Source of the DNA: Desulfobacteraceae bacterium
GTDB taxonomy: Bacteria > Desulfobacterota > Desulfobacteria > Desulfobacterales > Desulfosalsimonadaceae
Direction of reading: 5' to 3'
Length of the DNA stretch: 34,944 nt
Assembly (NCBI GenBank): GCA_021737545.1
Contig: JAIPDT010000014.1
Coordinates: 1-34,944 of the forward strand
Shown: positions 1-25,840 of the stretch, piece after piece
How positions within the stretch are numbered: the stretch's first letter is position 1
Layout of the letters: each line of letters opens with the position of its first letter
Made by a program: the position numbers and the translations under genes
Notes under the pieces: generated by a model
Database searches by the model: none
Told to the model about the DNA's origin: nothing
What the model saw: only the letters and a program-made list of their open reading frames with translations

Positions 1-93
1 ATTGCCGGCGTTGGCCAGGTTGTTGACAGCTACTTCCATTTGCCGCATCCGGGCCAAACCGCCGGATAATGCACTGTAAATGCCGGAACCCAT
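1..93 (-). CDS. flgF: Flagellar basal-body rod protein FlgF (5' end only)
   Basis: Only the first 31 codons are present; the gene continues off the left edge. The translation begins MGSGIYSALSGGLARM and reaches NNLANAGN, the N-terminal signature of the rod/hook family (FlgB, FlgC, FlgE, FlgF, FlgG). The MGSGIYSALSG opening is typical of FlgF in delta-type proteobacteria, though FlgG cannot be fully excluded from so short a piece. An AAGGGGGG ribosome-binding site lies just upstream of the ATG. The protein would be exported by the flagellar type III system and form the proximal rod. It is preceded by a sigma-28 promoter at 193-219, so it probably heads a late flgF-flgG operon. Confidence 0.8.
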   Translation of the reverse strand, partial: MGSGIYSALSGGLARMRQMEVAVNNLANAGN

Positions 94-192: not shown

Positions 193-219
193 TTATCGGC
201 CTATTTCATTAAAGCTTTA
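193..219 (-). promoter_or_regulatory. Sigma-28 (FliA) promoter upstream of flgF
   Basis: Read on the minus strand, the -35 box is TAAAGCTT (219-212), the spacer is exactly 11 nt (211-201) and the -10 box is GCCGATAA (200-193). Against the enterobacterial FliA consensus TAAAGTTT-N11-GCCGATAA there is one mismatch in 16 positions. Transcription would start near 186, about 90 nt before the flgF ATG. The site lies between the DUF2802-like gene and flgF, so it separates the early operon containing fliA from the late rod genes. Confidence 0.85.
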
Positions 220-246: not shown

Positions 247-633
247 TTATGCCGATTCCTTGCGTGAGTCGGCGAGTTCTATCATCTGCTCGGCTTCATT
301 CCGTGATACTTCCAGGATTTCAGCAATATCGGAAACCCCGAGACCGGAACGTATAAGCTGTGACACGTACCGATATTTTGACGAAACAACGAACCGCCCA
401 TACTCCCTGGTCTCAAAACGCGACTCAAGCTGTTTTTCTGTCAGCCCGCCGCCCTTGCGGGTGTCCTCGTGTTTTACCCGGGATTCCGCCTGCTGCAGCC
501 TGGTAGTCAAATCATCGATTTCAGCCCGGTGCCGCCTTAATTGCCTGCAAACCCGAAAATAGAATATCATGGCAAGCATTGCCCAAAATACACATATCGC
601 CCCTGTCAGGCACAAAAACACGATCTCTGCCAT
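247..633 (-). CDS. DUF2802-like small membrane protein
   Basis: This 128-residue protein has one N-terminal transmembrane segment (about residues 4-26), a charged region likely to form a coiled coil (about 30-55) and a C-terminal helix-turn-helix-like segment (about 88-120, VSQLIRSGLGVSDIAEILEVS). The plan of membrane anchor plus short C-terminal HTH-like motif resembles DUF2802 proteins found in flagellar and chemotaxis operons of proteobacteria. No biochemical function is known to me for that family. It starts 21 nt after the fliA stop and is the last gene of the operon before the sigma-28 promoter of flgF. The family assignment is by pattern only. Confidence 0.6.
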   Translation of the reverse strand: MAEIVFLCLTGAICVFWAMLAMIFYFRVCRQLRRHRAEIDDLTTRLQQAESRVKHEDTRKGGGLTEKQLESRFETREYGRFVVSSKYRYVSQLIRSGLGVSDIAEILEVSRNEAEQMIELADSRKESA

Positions 634-654: not shown

Positions 655-1368
655 CTAATTTCGCAATGCAGCCTTTAACTTGATTAAAGCCTGGCTGTGT
701 AACTGGGAAATACGGCCCTCGGAAAGCTCCAGGACCTCTGCGATCTCTTTTTGGGTAAATTCTTCGTAATAAAACAGGCTCACCACCAGCCGCTCTTTTT
801 CCGATAAATTATCAAGCGCGCCGGCAAGCTCTCTGACCCGCTCCTTTCTGTCCACCGTGTCTTCAGGGCTCTGACCTGCGTTATCCTCGAGCTTATCCAT
901 AAAAGTATCCCCGCCGGAAGCCTCGTCCAGGACCTCGTGGAGACTCACGATTCCGAGGTGCCCTATTTCGTTTAACACCTGCTGGTATTCCTCCAGGGTC
1001 ATGTTCATTGATTCTGCAATTTCTTCCTCTGCGGGCGGACGACCCAGTTTCTTTTCGAGTTGTTTGATTTCATTTAATACCCGGTTATGTTTTTCGCGCA
1101 TGGAGCGGGAAAACCAGTCCATTTTCCGAAGCTCATCGCGCACCGCACCCCGGATCCGGGTTTCGGCAAAGGTTTTAAACAGCACGCCCTTGCCGGGATC
1201 AAACCGGCTGGCAGCCTCCATGAGTCCATGCAGAGCCGCGCTTCTCAATTCGTCAATGGAAACATATGCCGGAATCTGAGGCCGCATCCTGTAGATCACG
1301 AATTCCACAAAATTCAGGTGCGCCCTGATCAACTCGTCTCTTTGATCATAAGCAGTTGCGTGATACAT
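655..1368 (-). CDS. fliA: RNA polymerase sigma factor FliA (sigma-28)
   Basis: FliA directs RNA polymerase to late flagellar promoters. The 237-residue product starting at MYHATAYDQRDEL has sigma region 2 (about residues 18-90, including SIDELRSAALHGLMEAASRF), region 3 and a region 4 helix-turn-helix near the C-terminus (LSEKERLVVSLFYYEEF to SEGRISQLHSQA). The reading frame stays open to 1431, but that would put the start inside a hairpin, and the extra residues do not look like sigma factor. The ATG at 1368 fits the usual family N-terminus and has GGGAG and AAGG upstream. It follows flhG across a perfect inverted repeat. A matching sigma-28 promoter lies downstream at 193-219. Confidence 0.95.
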   Translation of the reverse strand: MYHATAYDQRDELIRAHLNFVEFVIYRMRPQIPAYVSIDELRSAALHGLMEAASRFDPGKGVLFKTFAETRIRGAVRDELRKMDWFSRSMREKHNRVLNEIKQLEKKLGRPPAEEEIAESMNMTLEEYQQVLNEIGHLGIVSLHEVLDEASGGDTFMDKLEDNAGQSPEDTVDRKERVRELAGALDNLSEKERLVVSLFYYEEFTQKEIAEVLELSEGRISQLHSQALIKLKAALRN

Positions 1369-1393
1369 ATCCTTTTCATCTCCCTTGCCGGAG

Positions 1394-1452
1394 CTAGTTA
1401 GTATCCATCCAGAAATTGCTAATTTGCCCAATTTCTGGATGGATACTAGTTA
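1394..1452. repeat. Perfect 20-bp inverted repeat flanked by 7-bp direct repeats
   Basis: The arms 1399-1418 and 1429-1448 are exact reverse complements separated by a 10-nt loop. The heptamer CTAGTTA occurs directly at 1394-1400 and again at 1446-1452, like a target-site duplication overlapping the arm ends by a few bases. The flhG stop codon (1446-1448) lies inside one arm. No T-tract follows on the minus strand, so this is not a standard rho-independent terminator. It may be a small insertion or an mRNA structure between flhG and fliA. Confidence 0.75.
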
Positions 1453-3550: not shown

Positions 3551-5624
3551 TTAAACTCACCGTGCCAAGAGATTGAATTTTGACCTGAGGGGCTATCTCG
3601 TTGTGCGAAATAACCGTCAAACCAGGGAAATATCTTTCAGTCAGTTTTTTGACATGCAACCGGATTGCCGGCGGACACAATAAAACAGGACCGGTGCCGC
3701 CGGTAAATTTTTCAATATGCTTGCCTATGGCCTCGAGTATGGATCTTGCCTTGCCGGGTTCAAGAGTTATAACACTGCCCTGCCCGCCGGACTGGATCGA
3801 ATTCTGAATGGCTTCCTCAACCTCTTGATCCAGGGTAATAATGGGAATTGTATCGCCGTCTCCGGCAATCGAGATACTGATCTGCCGGGCCAGGGCCTGG
3901 CGCACGTATTCTGTAAGCAGATCCGGGTCCTGAATATGGGGGGCATAATCAGCCAGAGTCTCCAGGATAGTCCGAAGATCCCGGATAGATACATTTTCTT
4001 TTAATAAATTCTGCAGCACTTTCAGCACGCCTCCTAAACTCATCAGGTTGGGAAGTAATTCCTCTGTCAGTTTGGGATACTTCTTGGCAATATTATCTAG
4101 CAAGTTCTGTGCCTCCTGCCGGCCCAGCAATTCATGAGCATGTTTTTTCACCACCTCGCTGATATGGGTGGCCATGACAGTGTTGCAGTCGACCACGGTA
4201 TATCCGGCCATCTGGGCCCGCTCCTTTTTGTCCTCGGAAATCCAGATGGCGGGCAGACCGAAGGCCGGCTCCACCGTGGAAACACCCTTGAGCTTTTCAG
4301 TAACATTGCCCGAGTCCATTGCCATAAAATAGCCCGGCATCATCTCGGCCGAGGCGACCGGCACTCCCTTTAACAGCAGACGATACTCGTTGGGCTTTAA
4401 CTCCAGGTTGTCCTTGATATGAATGGGCGGCATGATAAATCCCAATGAATAGGCGAACTGTTTTCTAATCGAGCGGATCCTGGTCAAAAGCTCTCCGTCC
4501 TGTGCGACGTCCACGAATCTGATCAGCCCGTATCCCACCTCGAGTTCCAAAAGGTCGACCGAAAGCAGATCCTCATAGTTGTCTTCTGCTTCCTGACCTT
4601 CCTGTTCCGGCTCCGCCTCGACTTCGACTGGCGCAGTGGCCTGCTGCTTCTGAATAAAATAGGCCAGGGCAAACAGCAGAAGCGAGAGCACCAGAAAGGG
4701 CAGAAAGGGCAATCCCGGAATCAGGGCAAATCCCAGCAGAATTGCGCCCACCACCCATATGGCGCGCACGTTGAACCCGAATTGCTTTTTGATCTGACTG
4801 CCGAAATCACCCAGGCCGCCGCTTCTTGAAACCAGAATACCCGCGCCGGTCGAAATGACAAGGGCCGGCACCTGGCTTACCAGGCCGTCGCCGATAGTCA
4901 GGGTGGTATAATTCCGGGCGGCTTCGGCCAGCGGCATGTTCTGCTGGAGCACGCCGATAATAAAGCCTGCGCATATATTGATCACCGTGATTGCAATTCC
5001 GGCGATGGCATCTCCGCGAACGAACTTGCTCGCCCCGTCCATGGCCCCGAAAAAATCGGCTTCACTGGTAATTTCCTCGCGGCGGCTGCGGGCCTGCTCC
5101 TCGTTGATCAGCCCGGCATTTAAATCGGCATCAATGGCCATTTGTTTTCCGGGCATGGCATCCAGGGTAAAGCGCGCCGAGACCTCGGCCACCCGTCCCG
5201 CACCCTTGGTTATGACAATAAAGTTGATGACCACCAGGATCAAAAACACCACAATGCCCACCACGTAATTGCCTCCGACGACAAACTGGCCGAACGACTG
5301 AATTACCTTGCCGGCGGCATATTCGCCTGTATGCCCCTGAAGCAGGATCAGACGCGTGGAGGCAACATTTAGCGACAGGCGCAGCAGGGTGGTGACCAGC
5401 AGCACTGTCGGAAATATGGAAAATTCAAGGGACTTTTCCACGTAAAGCGTAATGACCAGTATCATCAGGGCGATCGTGATGTTTAACGCCAGAAACAGGT
5501 CCAATAGCATCGGGGGCATGGGAATGATCATTACCAGCAGGATCATTACCAGCCCCAGCGACACAAACACGTCGCTTCTTACCAGCACACGGTCCCATCG
5601 TTTTTCCATTATTTCGCGAATCAT
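3540..5624 (-). CDS. flhA: Flagellar export gate protein FlhA
   Basis: FlhA forms the ring-shaped export gate of the flagellar type III secretion system. The 694-residue product matches the normal family length. About eight transmembrane segments fill the N-terminal ~320 residues, including the conserved stretch LLRLSLNVASTRLIL. An acidic linker (EVEAEPEQEGQEAED) leads to the cytoplasmic domain that docks chaperone-substrate complexes. Start codon ATG at 5624 overlaps the flhB stop in an ATGA arrangement; MEKRW, five residues later, is a possible alternative start. Confidence 0.97.
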   Translation of the reverse strand: MIREIMEKRWDRVLVRSDVFVSLGLVMILLVMIIPMPPMLLDLFLALNITIALMILVITLYVEKSLEFSIFPTVLLVTTLLRLSLNVASTRLILLQGHTGEYAAGKVIQSFGQFVVGGNYVVGIVVFLILVVINFIVITKGAGRVAEVSARFTLDAMPGKQMAIDADLNAGLINEEQARSRREEITSEADFFGAMDGASKFVRGDAIAGIAITVINICAGFIIGVLQQNMPLAEAARNYTTLTIGDGLVSQVPALVISTGAGILVSRSGGLGDFGSQIKKQFGFNVRAIWVVGAILLGFALIPGLPFLPFLVLSLLLFALAYFIQKQQATAPVEVEAEPEQEGQEAEDNYEDLLSVDLLELEVGYGLIRFVDVAQDGELLTRIRSIRKQFAYSLGFIMPPIHIKDNLELKPNEYRLLLKGVPVASAEMMPGYFMAMDSGNVTEKLKGVSTVEPAFGLPAIWISEDKKERAQMAGYTVVDCNTVMATHISEVVKKHAHELLGRQEAQNLLDNIAKKYPKLTEELLPNLMSLGGVLKVLQNLLKENVSIRDLRTILETLADYAPHIQDPDLLTEYVRQALARQISISIAGDGDTIPIITLDQEVEEAIQNSIQSGGQGSVITLEPGKARSILEAIGKHIEKFTGGTGPVLLCPPAIRLHVKKLTERYFPGLTVISHNEIAPQVKIQSLGTVSLNAG

Positions 5625-12426: not shown

Positions 12427-12443
12427 TGCAATCATCATACCAA
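12427..12443 (-). promoter_or_regulatory. Sigma-54 (-24/-12) promoter of the motA operon
   Basis: Read on the minus strand the site is TTGGTATGATGATTGCA. It has TGG at the -24 position and TTGC at the -12 position, with 11 nt between the first T of each, which is the required spacing. It agrees with the consensus YTGGCACG-N4-TTGCW except for pyrimidine changes at two less strict positions. Transcription would start near 12416, about 20 nt before the motA ATG. Confidence 0.75.
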
Positions 12444-12467: not shown

Positions 12468-12489
12468 GCAGGACAGGTGATTTACAAAC

Positions 12490-12521
12490 AAAAAGGCCGA
12501 TCTTTACAGACCGGCCTTTTT
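12490..12521 (-). terminator. Rho-independent terminator after flgE
   Basis: A 10-bp perfect stem (12490-12499 with 12512-12521) has a GC core GGCCG and a 12-nt loop. On the minus strand the stem is followed by TTTTTG and more T-rich sequence, as expected for the end of the flgB-to-flgE operon. The T-run on the other side means it could also act on the plus strand, but no plus-strand transcript is evident here. Confidence 0.85.
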
Positions 12522-12550
12522 AAAAAAGACAAATTTTTGACCCAAAACTT

Positions 12551-16586: not shown

Positions 16587-17102
16587 TTATTTATCCAGCT
16601 GTCCCAGCGAGGTGCTATAGTCCACGGCGGTAGCTTGTTCCATATTGTCCAGGATTTCGCCTGCATACTTATCCCGCATCCTGGACAGGACCGAAACCGC
16701 CAGCTCTTTATCCATGGCTGCCAGGCTTGCAGCCGCTGCCGCGGGTTCCCGTTTCTGGTATATTTTGCTGAGCTTTTTCACTTTTTCGTTTTCCCCCTGC
16801 TCTTTTTCAGCCAGCATTTCTCCGAGTTCGTCTCTTAGCTGCTTTAATCGCTCGATTTTCTTATCGACCTCGGCCTGTAAAATCTTTAATTCATTTTCCC
16901 GCTTATCAATCTCTTTTTCACGCCGGGAAAACTCGGCCCGTTCTTTTTTCAGCCCCGAGAGCACCCTTCGGGCCTGCACCCCGATATCACCGCATTCAAA
17001 CACGACCTTTGCATCCTGGCAGTAGCCGCAGATAGTAAAAAACAATACCATCAGCATGGCCGCAGGCATCAGGCAGGTCTTTTTTAATAATCTTTTTCTC
17101 AT
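16587..17102 (-). CDS. MotE-like periplasmic coiled-coil protein
   Basis: The 171-residue protein has an N-terminal signal sequence (hydrophobic about residues 10-28), then a long charged coiled coil (about 50-115, KKERAEFSRREKEIDKRE and following) and a C-terminal helical domain (LAAMDKELAVSVLSRMRDKYAGEILDNM) that resembles the MgtE N-terminal/FliG-like fold seen in MotE. MotE of rhizobia chaperones the periplasmic motility protein MotC; the same architecture is common between fliJ and fliK in delta-type proteobacteria. It overlaps fliJ by 4 nt. The exact role here is unproven. Confidence 0.75.
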   Translation of the reverse strand: MRKRLLKKTCLMPAAMLMVLFFTICGYCQDAKVVFECGDIGVQARRVLSGLKKERAEFSRREKEIDKRENELKILQAEVDKKIERLKQLRDELGEMLAEKEQGENEKVKKLSKIYQKREPAAAAASLAAMDKELAVSVLSRMRDKYAGEILDNMEQATAVDYSTSLGQLDK

Positions 17103-22190: not shown

Positions 22191-22490
22191 TTACACCTGC
22201 ATGCGCATGATTTCTTTGTAGGCATCCACCGCCTTGTTGCGCACCTGTACCAGAAGCCTCAGGGAGATATCCGCCTTTTCCATGGCAATCATCACATCGT
22301 GCAGTGCCGCCGGGCCGCCTGTATTGGTCTGCAGAATCGACTGATCGGCCTGTTTTAAGTTCTGGGCGGTTTCATTTAACATTTTTTCAAACGTATCAGC
22401 CGGACCCGTACCTGATTTAGCCTGTCCAGCCTCGGCGGCCTCGGCCATTATTTTACCGGCCCCGGCACCCTGGGATATCGGACTTGTCAT
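22191..22490 (-). CDS. fliE: Hook-basal body protein FliE
   Basis: FliE links the MS ring to the rod. The 99-residue product ends in the conserved C-terminal helix DISLRLLVQVRNKAVDAYKE-type segment with the terminal MRMQV, and the middle contains DTFEKMLNETAQNLKQAD. Size and place between flgC and fliF are standard. GGGAGG lies eight bases before the ATG. Confidence 0.95.
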   Translation of the reverse strand: MTSPISQGAGAGKIMAEAAEAGQAKSGTGPADTFEKMLNETAQNLKQADQSILQTNTGGPAALHDVMIAMEKADISLRLLVQVRNKAVDAYKEIMRMQV

Positions 22491-22495
22491 GATAT

Positions 22496-22927
22496 CTACC
22501 TCCCGATCTCAAGTGCTTTTGCGGCCATGCGCTGGGCAGTCTTTATGGCTGTGACATTGGCTTCGTAGCCGCCCTTGGCGTTCATCATGTCTGTCATCTG
22601 CTCAACCAGACTTATATCCGGTTTCCGCACATAACCTTGGGCATTGGCATCCGGATGTGACGGTTCATAAACATCCTTGACGCTGTCCGGATCCGTTTGA
22701 ATCTGCCGGACGCGCACGCCCTGGGCCATTTCCCGGGTGCTGTTTTCCAACTCTGCGGCAAATCCGGATTCCTGAGTGGTAAATACCACCGACTTCTTTT
22801 GATAAGGTCCGCCCTCAGGCGTCCGGGTGGTTTCCATATTTGCGAGGTTTGAACCGATTACGTTTAAACGGACCGTGTGTGCCCGCAGGGCCGAATAGCC
22901 GATGTCCATGGCGCCTAAAATATTCAT
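22496..22927 (-). CDS. flgC: Proximal rod protein FlgC
   Basis: FlgC is a proximal rod subunit. The 143-residue protein has the rod-family N-terminus (MDIGYSALRAHTVRLNVIGS, NLANMETTRTPEG) and a C-terminal helix with the FlgC hallmark DISLVEQMTDMMNAKGGYEANV. It is followed by fliE after 5 nt, with an AAGGAGG ribosome-binding site. Confidence 0.96.
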   Translation of the reverse strand: MNILGAMDIGYSALRAHTVRLNVIGSNLANMETTRTPEGGPYQKKSVVFTTQESGFAAELENSTREMAQGVRVRQIQTDPDSVKDVYEPSHPDANAQGYVRKPDISLVEQMTDMMNAKGGYEANVTAIKTAQRMAAKALEIGR

Positions 22928-22939
22928 TGGTTGCCTCCT

Positions 22940-23356
22940 TTATGCCCTTTCCTGAATTACAGTTTTTAACATATTGAATTTCTTTGATAACATCCGAATT
23001 GCCGCCTCATATCGAATCCGGTTTTCAGACAGATCCGTCATTTCCTGTTCCAGCACGACATTGTTGCCGTCGCCGATGACACTCTGCGCGGGTTCCCTGT
23101 ATACCTCGGCTTCAACGAATCCGAGATTTCCCTTCCCGGAAAAACCAAAATGCCGCGGATGGGTTGCCGCCGGCCCGGACTCATTGCCATTAGCCGCCCC
23201 GGCCAGAGCCTTTTCAAAATCCATTTTCATCCGGGAATACCCGGGGGTTTCTGCGTTGGCTATATTTGCGGAAATAATCTGAAGCTTTTGACTTCGCAAT
23301 GAAAGCGCCTTTTCAAGCGTCTGGATGGTTGTGTCAAAAATCGGACTTGCAGACAT
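22940..23356 (-). CDS. flgB: Proximal rod protein FlgB
   Basis: FlgB is the most proximal rod subunit. The 138-residue product contains the rod-family N-terminal motif LQIISANIANAETPGYSRMK, a variable Gly/Ala-rich middle and the C-terminal helix NRIRYEAAIRMLSKKFNML. It begins 11 nt after the end of the TPR-protein gene, so both are probably in one transcript from the sigma-54 promoter at 25824-25840. Confidence 0.96.
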   Translation of the reverse strand: MSASPIFDTTIQTLEKALSLRSQKLQIISANIANAETPGYSRMKMDFEKALAGAANGNESGPAATHPRHFGFSGKGNLGFVEAEVYREPAQSVIGDGNNVVLEQEMTDLSENRIRYEAAIRMLSKKFNMLKTVIQERA

Positions 23357-25823: not shown

Positions 25824-25840
25824 ATGCAAAACCAAGGCCA
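25824..25840 (-). promoter_or_regulatory. Sigma-54 (-24/-12) promoter of the TPR-flgB operon
   Basis: Read on the minus strand, the site is TGGCCTTGGTTTTGCAT. The TGGC and TTGC blocks have exactly 11 nt between their first bases, as in TGGCACG-N4-TTGC. Transcription would start near 25814, giving a very short leader that still holds the AGGAGG ribosome-binding site. The divergent gene at 26023 encodes a sigma-54 activator, which supports the call. Confidence 0.8.

Follow-up and report, generated by a model that had tools for sequence, protein, structure and literature searches.

In models of the flagellar hierarchy the sigma-28 factor FliA acts once the rod and hook are finished. A putative FliA promoter in front of the rod gene flgF, found in a window of 34,944 nucleotides (the whole stretch of DNA analysed, which makes up contig 144 of an assembly of 2.64 Mb, 93% complete), raises the question of which sigma factor supplies the distal rod in this bacterium, and at what stage. 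The minus strand of the window carries a flagellar cluster (1–27453), which starts with a TPR gene, flgB, flgC, fliE, fliF-J, a MotE-like gene, fliK, flgD and flgE, and continues with motA, motB, fliL-fliR, flhB, flhA, flhF, flhG, fliA, a DUF2802-like gene and the 5′ end of flgF. The names fliG-J, fliL-O and fliQ were assigned without a family scan, from gene order and from tblastn comparison with the corresponding genes of relatives. The closest relatives with names are Desulfobacteraceae/Desulfobacterales MAGs. Apart from motif counts, which took in the whole assembly, the analysis covered stretches near flagellar loci and motif hits. The end of the cluster is arranged as follows:

1–93, minus strand: start of flgF, truncated by the contig end after 31 codons; 81% identity to the N-terminus of FlgF from G178, a genome of the same genus
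193–219, minus strand: putative sigma-28 (FliA) promoter, with the −35 TAAAGCTT at 219–212, an 11-nt spacer and the −10 GCCGATAA at 200–193
247–633, minus strand: DUF2802-like gene, located downstream of fliA and upstream of the promoter (PF10975, E 5.7e-6, 26.8 bits, under the 33.5-bit Pfam cut-off)
655–1431, minus strand: fliA, sigma-28 factor (TIGR02479, 254 bits against a cut-off of 189.6; alignment to solved FliA/WhiG chains)

Read from 219 to 193 on the minus strand, the site is TAAAGCTT-taatgaaatag-GCCGATAA (8 + 11 + 8) and thus has the −35 TAAA(GTTT), the 11-nt spacer and the −10 GCCGATAA of a FliA promoter. It agrees at 15 of 16 positions, with exact spacing, with the E. coli FliA consensus TAAAGTTT-N11-GCCGATAA used for scoring (PMC4183435). 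The −10 box lies 99 nt from the flgF ATG (93–91), with a predicted transcription start at about 185–187 and a predicted 5′ UTR of about 93 nt. Among 60 simulated windows that matched the real one in dinucleotide composition, with spacers of 10–12 permitted, none held a 15/16 match and 14/16 matches arose at 0.05 per window, so that the near-consensus sigma-28 site which the first-pass annotation had recognized at 193–219 stands. In the whole assembly the exact form TAAAGNNT-N11-GCCGATAA occurs twice, with 0.018 copies expected from base composition; the other copy lies 83 nt upstream of an HDOD-domain gene (L001 1501–1527 / L113 7933–7959), which is likely a non-structural FliA target. When up to two mismatches are allowed, the motif and its reversed pattern are equally frequent in the genome, so that only near-exact sites are informative; nor did genome-wide motif counts give a useful excess in FliA-plus over FliA-minus relatives, the pattern being too loose. 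The missing excess over the reversed pattern is what would speak for a functionless chance match, a reading that is made highly improbable by the near-exact match, its position and its conservation across lineages.

The same annotation had placed the site right after fliA and had considered its conservation unusual for a distant phylum. The first description is corrected by the DUF2802-like gene (128 aa), which intervenes, and the second lacks support, since the FliA consensus is in fact widely shared, so that a near-consensus site is to be expected for an active FliA. For Bdellovibrio, the FliA consensus is TTAAG-N16-CCGATA (PMC3627812). The genome encodes both a cognate FliA and FlgM (TIGR02479 and TIGR03824, above cut-off). 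A DUF2802-like gene is present between fliA and flgF in the window's clade and apparently also in several other sigma-28-type genomes, as judged by the end of the upstream gene.

The site is conserved in the orthologous position, being present before flgF in four divergent Desulfobacterales although the flanking DNA has diverged (the window; G178/L059, L059 being a near relative; L060; and G095, identical to L061). In G178, L060 and G095 the stretch between the DUF2802-like gene and flgF is otherwise unalignable, and TAAA-N15-GNCGATAA sits 50–67 nt upstream of flgF; in G095 it is a weak match (12/16). A gapless alignment anchored on the site has 11 of 13 invariant element columns versus 3 of 79 surrounding ones, where the anchor itself fixes 11 positions and the weight lies in finding such an anchor in each short gap, for which the chance is estimated at ~2e-5 per upstream region. 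A position weight matrix was trained on the flgM, fliC, HDOD and FliK-like sites together with the E. coli consensus, leaving the flgF sites out, and was scanned over the 200 nt upstream of flgF (smallest attainable p = 0.003). Twelve genomes reached p ≤ 0.01 (the window, G178, L060, G523, G506, G554, G536, G519, G464, G244, G559 and G366), nine of them from other families of the phylum, and G095 and G279 gave 0.04 and 0.06, respectively. By contrast, none of 20 own-order genomes fell below p = 0.1, and neither did the three genomes where fliA directly precedes flgF (G431, G218 and G342); no site was detected in the allied genomes G489 and G451, in which the upstream gene ends 18 nt before flgF.

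Elsewhere in the order flgF is mostly preceded by a different kind of site. Among 60 other regions upstream of flgF in the order, 48 have a sigma-54 site of at least 12.5 bits (reversed controls, 1 of 64), and 32 of 52 further genomes of the phylum have one of at least 13 bits (control, 0), but none of the four members of the window's clade does, the best scores there being 2.5–11.2 bits. These counts indicate two wirings of flgF within the phylum. In the FliA tree, which was calculated without G559, G366, G244, G489 and G451, the window's clade (100/99) falls, at 99/97, among genomes of other families within the phylum, and the remaining own-order FliA proteins are set apart from it (97/99). 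Similarly, FlgF of G178 shares 46–47% identity with the proteins of G523 and G506, and 31–35% with the best own-order FlgF outside the clade; fliA is absent from other genomes of the window's family. The simplest reading, suggested by the FliA and FlgF similarity, is that the flagellar system (cluster 1–27453) was transferred into the clade.

The genes for the proximal rod and for FliA itself lie behind sites of the sigma-54 type:

12427–12442, minus strand: sigma-54 −24/−12 site TGGTATGATGATTGCA before motA, also found before motA in G178 and G095
12489–12522, minus strand: strong intrinsic terminator 3′ of flgE, a 15-bp stem and T run, dividing flgE from the motA-fliA unit
22191–23356, minus strand: proximal rod genes flgB (22940–23356), flgC (22496–22927) and fliE (22191–22490), in a transcription unit other than that of flgF
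25825–25840, minus strand: sigma-54-like site TGGCCTTGGTTTTGCA, of low score, upstream of the unit TPR gene-flgB-flgC-fliE; retained in G178 as TGGCCCCAGTTTTGCA

TGGTATGATGATTGCA is presumably the promoter of motAB-fliLMNOPQR-flhBAFG-fliA-DUF2802. The −24/−12 sites expected of a polar flagellar programme before the flgB and fliA units are therefore both present, the one before motA…fliA being clear and the one before TPR-flgB weak but conserved, and a gene for a sigma-54 activator adjoins the TPR-flgBC-fliE unit in divergent orientation. Immediately upstream of flgB there is no sigma-54 site; the unit begins further up, at the TPR gene. The split rod proposed by the first-pass annotation, with flgB, flgC and fliE under sigma-54, is thus supported in so far as these genes belong to a unit that starts behind a −24/−12-like site, which is located before the TPR gene and not directly before flgB. 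A further sigma-54-like sequence at 4099–4114 (minus strand), AGGCACAGAACTTGCT or AGGCAC-N5-TTGCT, lies inside flhA and is retained in G178 and G095; it was set aside, coding conservation being the likely explanation.

Since the contig edge cuts flgF at codon 31, flgG and the genes beyond are deduced from relatives. G178 and G095 share the gene order flgF-flgG-flgA-flgH-flgI-flgJ-flgM-flgN-flgK-flgL, where flgM, flgJ and flagellin were confirmed with Pfam, while flgA, flgH, flgI and flgN are named by order and sequence appearance. The G178 FlgF orthologue scores 182.5 bits with TIGR02490 (cut-off 178.5), the window's own flgF comprising 31 residues only. Contig 184 of the window's genome carries flgJ, flgM, flgK and flgL as well as fliW-like and csrA-like genes, and comparison with G178 suggests that about 4–5 kb of sequence is missing between contigs 144 and 184. 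Twelve genomes of the window's layout (G178, G095, G523, G506, G554, G536, G519, G279, G464, G244, G489 and G451) carry flgM on the strand of flgF, 4.8–6.1 kb further downstream; among own-order genomes of the sigma-54 layout the two are linked in 3 of 10. This arrangement bears on the possibility that the promoter mainly serves flgM, flgN, flgK and flgL, that is, FlgM feedback and the hook-filament junction, with the rod and ring genes as passengers in front. Indeed, flgM, flgK and flgL lie within the same gene run as flgF, and the class 3 operons of E. coli include flgMN and flgKL (PMC4183435). However, flgM has a sigma-28 site of its own in G000, G178 and G095 (on contig 184, TAAAGTTT-N12-GTCGATAT about 140 nt upstream of flgM), and family f130 (G559 and G366) retains a strong flgF site although flgM is unlinked to flgF, so that such a role is improbable.

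Inferred from these sequence data are the activity and timing of the promoter and the reach of the operon in this genome: the flgF site is probably a working FliA promoter, which would drive flgF-flgG-flgA-flgH-flgI-flgJ and, judging by synteny, continue into flgM-flgN-flgK-flgL. The proposal of the first-pass annotation that flgF is under FliA is supported, given the conserved site and the cognate FliA and FlgM genes. Its assignment of flgF to the late genes is unlikely as stated. In the textbook order FliA is blocked by FlgM until the hook is complete (PMC7064773), and FlgM is not exported until rod and hook have been assembled, so that a purely late flgF would lead to a deadlock; since export requires the rod, either FliA must already act before the hook is complete or the genes must be primed by transcripts reading through from the fliA operon. 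Between the DUF2802-like gene and flgF no convincing terminator was found in the window or in G178, where hairpins occur at chance level only, and early read-through is therefore possible as well. In a dual supply of this kind, the sigma-54-dependent motA…fliA-DUF2802 transcript would first extend through flgF…flgJ, and the FliA promoter would be an internal booster. This would solve the deadlock directly and is consistent with the single strand of all the genes, the gap of 153 nt between DUF2802 and flgF without a strong terminator, and the −35 box of L060, which seemingly overlaps the DUF2802 stop codon. It would resemble the dual class 2/3 operons fliAZY, fliLMNOPQR, flgMN and flgKL of E. 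coli. In Geobacter sulfurreducens, a single operon with predicted control by RpoN is listed as containing fliA, flgA and the two flgG-like rod genes (PMC2725144). By contrast, the flgE-motA boundary demonstrates that strong terminators between units are used in this genome (−23.6 kcal/mol for a 66-nt piece, z −5.6), and the promoter was kept across many lineages, which argues that it matters even with read-through. We therefore regard dual supply as possible but rather unlikely, and favour FliA that is active before FlgM accumulates as the source of the first rod proteins.

In the favoured reading, sigma-54 and its enhancer-binding protein would transcribe the TPR-flgBC-fliE-fliF…flgE and motAB…flhA…fliA-DUF2802 units. 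The FliA made first would be active because FlgM is not yet made, an order of events compatible with the position of flgM downstream of flgF, and would transcribe the distal rod and P/L-ring genes along with flgM. FlgM would then build up, with the second FliA promoter adding to its expression, and restrain flagellin until it is exported by the finished hook, so that FliA would serve here as a middle factor in addition to a late one.

A FliA promoter may likewise stand ahead of the hook genes, as suggested by one further site:

16861–16888, minus strand: intragenic sigma-28 candidate TAAAGATT-N12-GTCGATAA ahead of fliK-flgD-flgE, retained in G178 and G095

In three divergent genomes TAAAG[AG]TT-N12-GTCGATAA lies within the MotE-like gene, about 290–320 nt before fliK (the window; L108 1897–1924; L114 15334–15361), and its codons are conserved beyond the rest of that gene (6 of 8 versus 12 of 66, a generous statistic since the site was chosen post hoc). 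In G178 (L105 11631–12974), a FliK-like gene close to the flagellin gene carries a 15/16 sigma-28 site, 8 nt upstream of the called start, and after this gene comes an open frame resembling the C-terminal 82 residues of FlhB.

The wiring is supported by comparative evidence and would represent a new variant of flagellar regulation; our literature search found no paper on FliA-dependent flgF in this phylum. More tentatively, we suggest that in one branch of the Thermodesulfobacteriota FliA acts upstream of the hook checkpoint, as the main factor for the distal rod and P/L-ring genes with flgM in the same operon, thereby coupling outer-rod assembly to arming of the checkpoint. If true, control of rod and ring genes by a conserved FliA promoter, with flgM further downstream, would place the checkpoint inside the FliA regulon, and free FliA is predicted to be needed before FlgM appears. 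The putative FliA promoter occupies the position where most of the order has a sigma-54 promoter, so that two wirings of one machine can be compared directly within a phylum.

In the polar flagellar programme of Vibrio cholerae, Campylobacter and Pseudomonas the rod and hook genes are under sigma-54, and in Bacillus subtilis the counterparts of flgF and flgG are flhO-flhP. The window resembles the polar programme in its sigma-54 sites before the flgBC-fliE and fliA units and in the sigma-54 activator gene alongside. However, flgFGHIJ of V. cholerae has its own sigma-54 promoter (PMC7064773), whereas flgF of the window is preceded by a sigma-28 site and lacks one for sigma-54. Distal rod genes beside fliA, with the fliA unit under sigma-54, are also seen in the fliA-flgG-flgG-flgA operon of G. 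sulfurreducens (GSU3056-3050); the part of the source that covers it describes an operon under RpoN with a mapped RpoN start for flgJ, and there reports no promoter of the sigma-28 type in the interval from fliA to the rod genes (PMC2725144). In E. coli, unlike here, flgF and flgG belong to the FlhDC-dependent flgBCDEFGHIJ operon; dual promoters are common in its flagellar operons, the rod operon lies outside the FliA targets, and FliA overexpression failed to rescue flgB (PMC4183435). The class 3 FliA promoters of E. coli and Salmonella (flgM, flgK, fliC) have the same promoter sequence and spacing as the site described here, and flgM and flgKL would, by synteny, be among the targets here.
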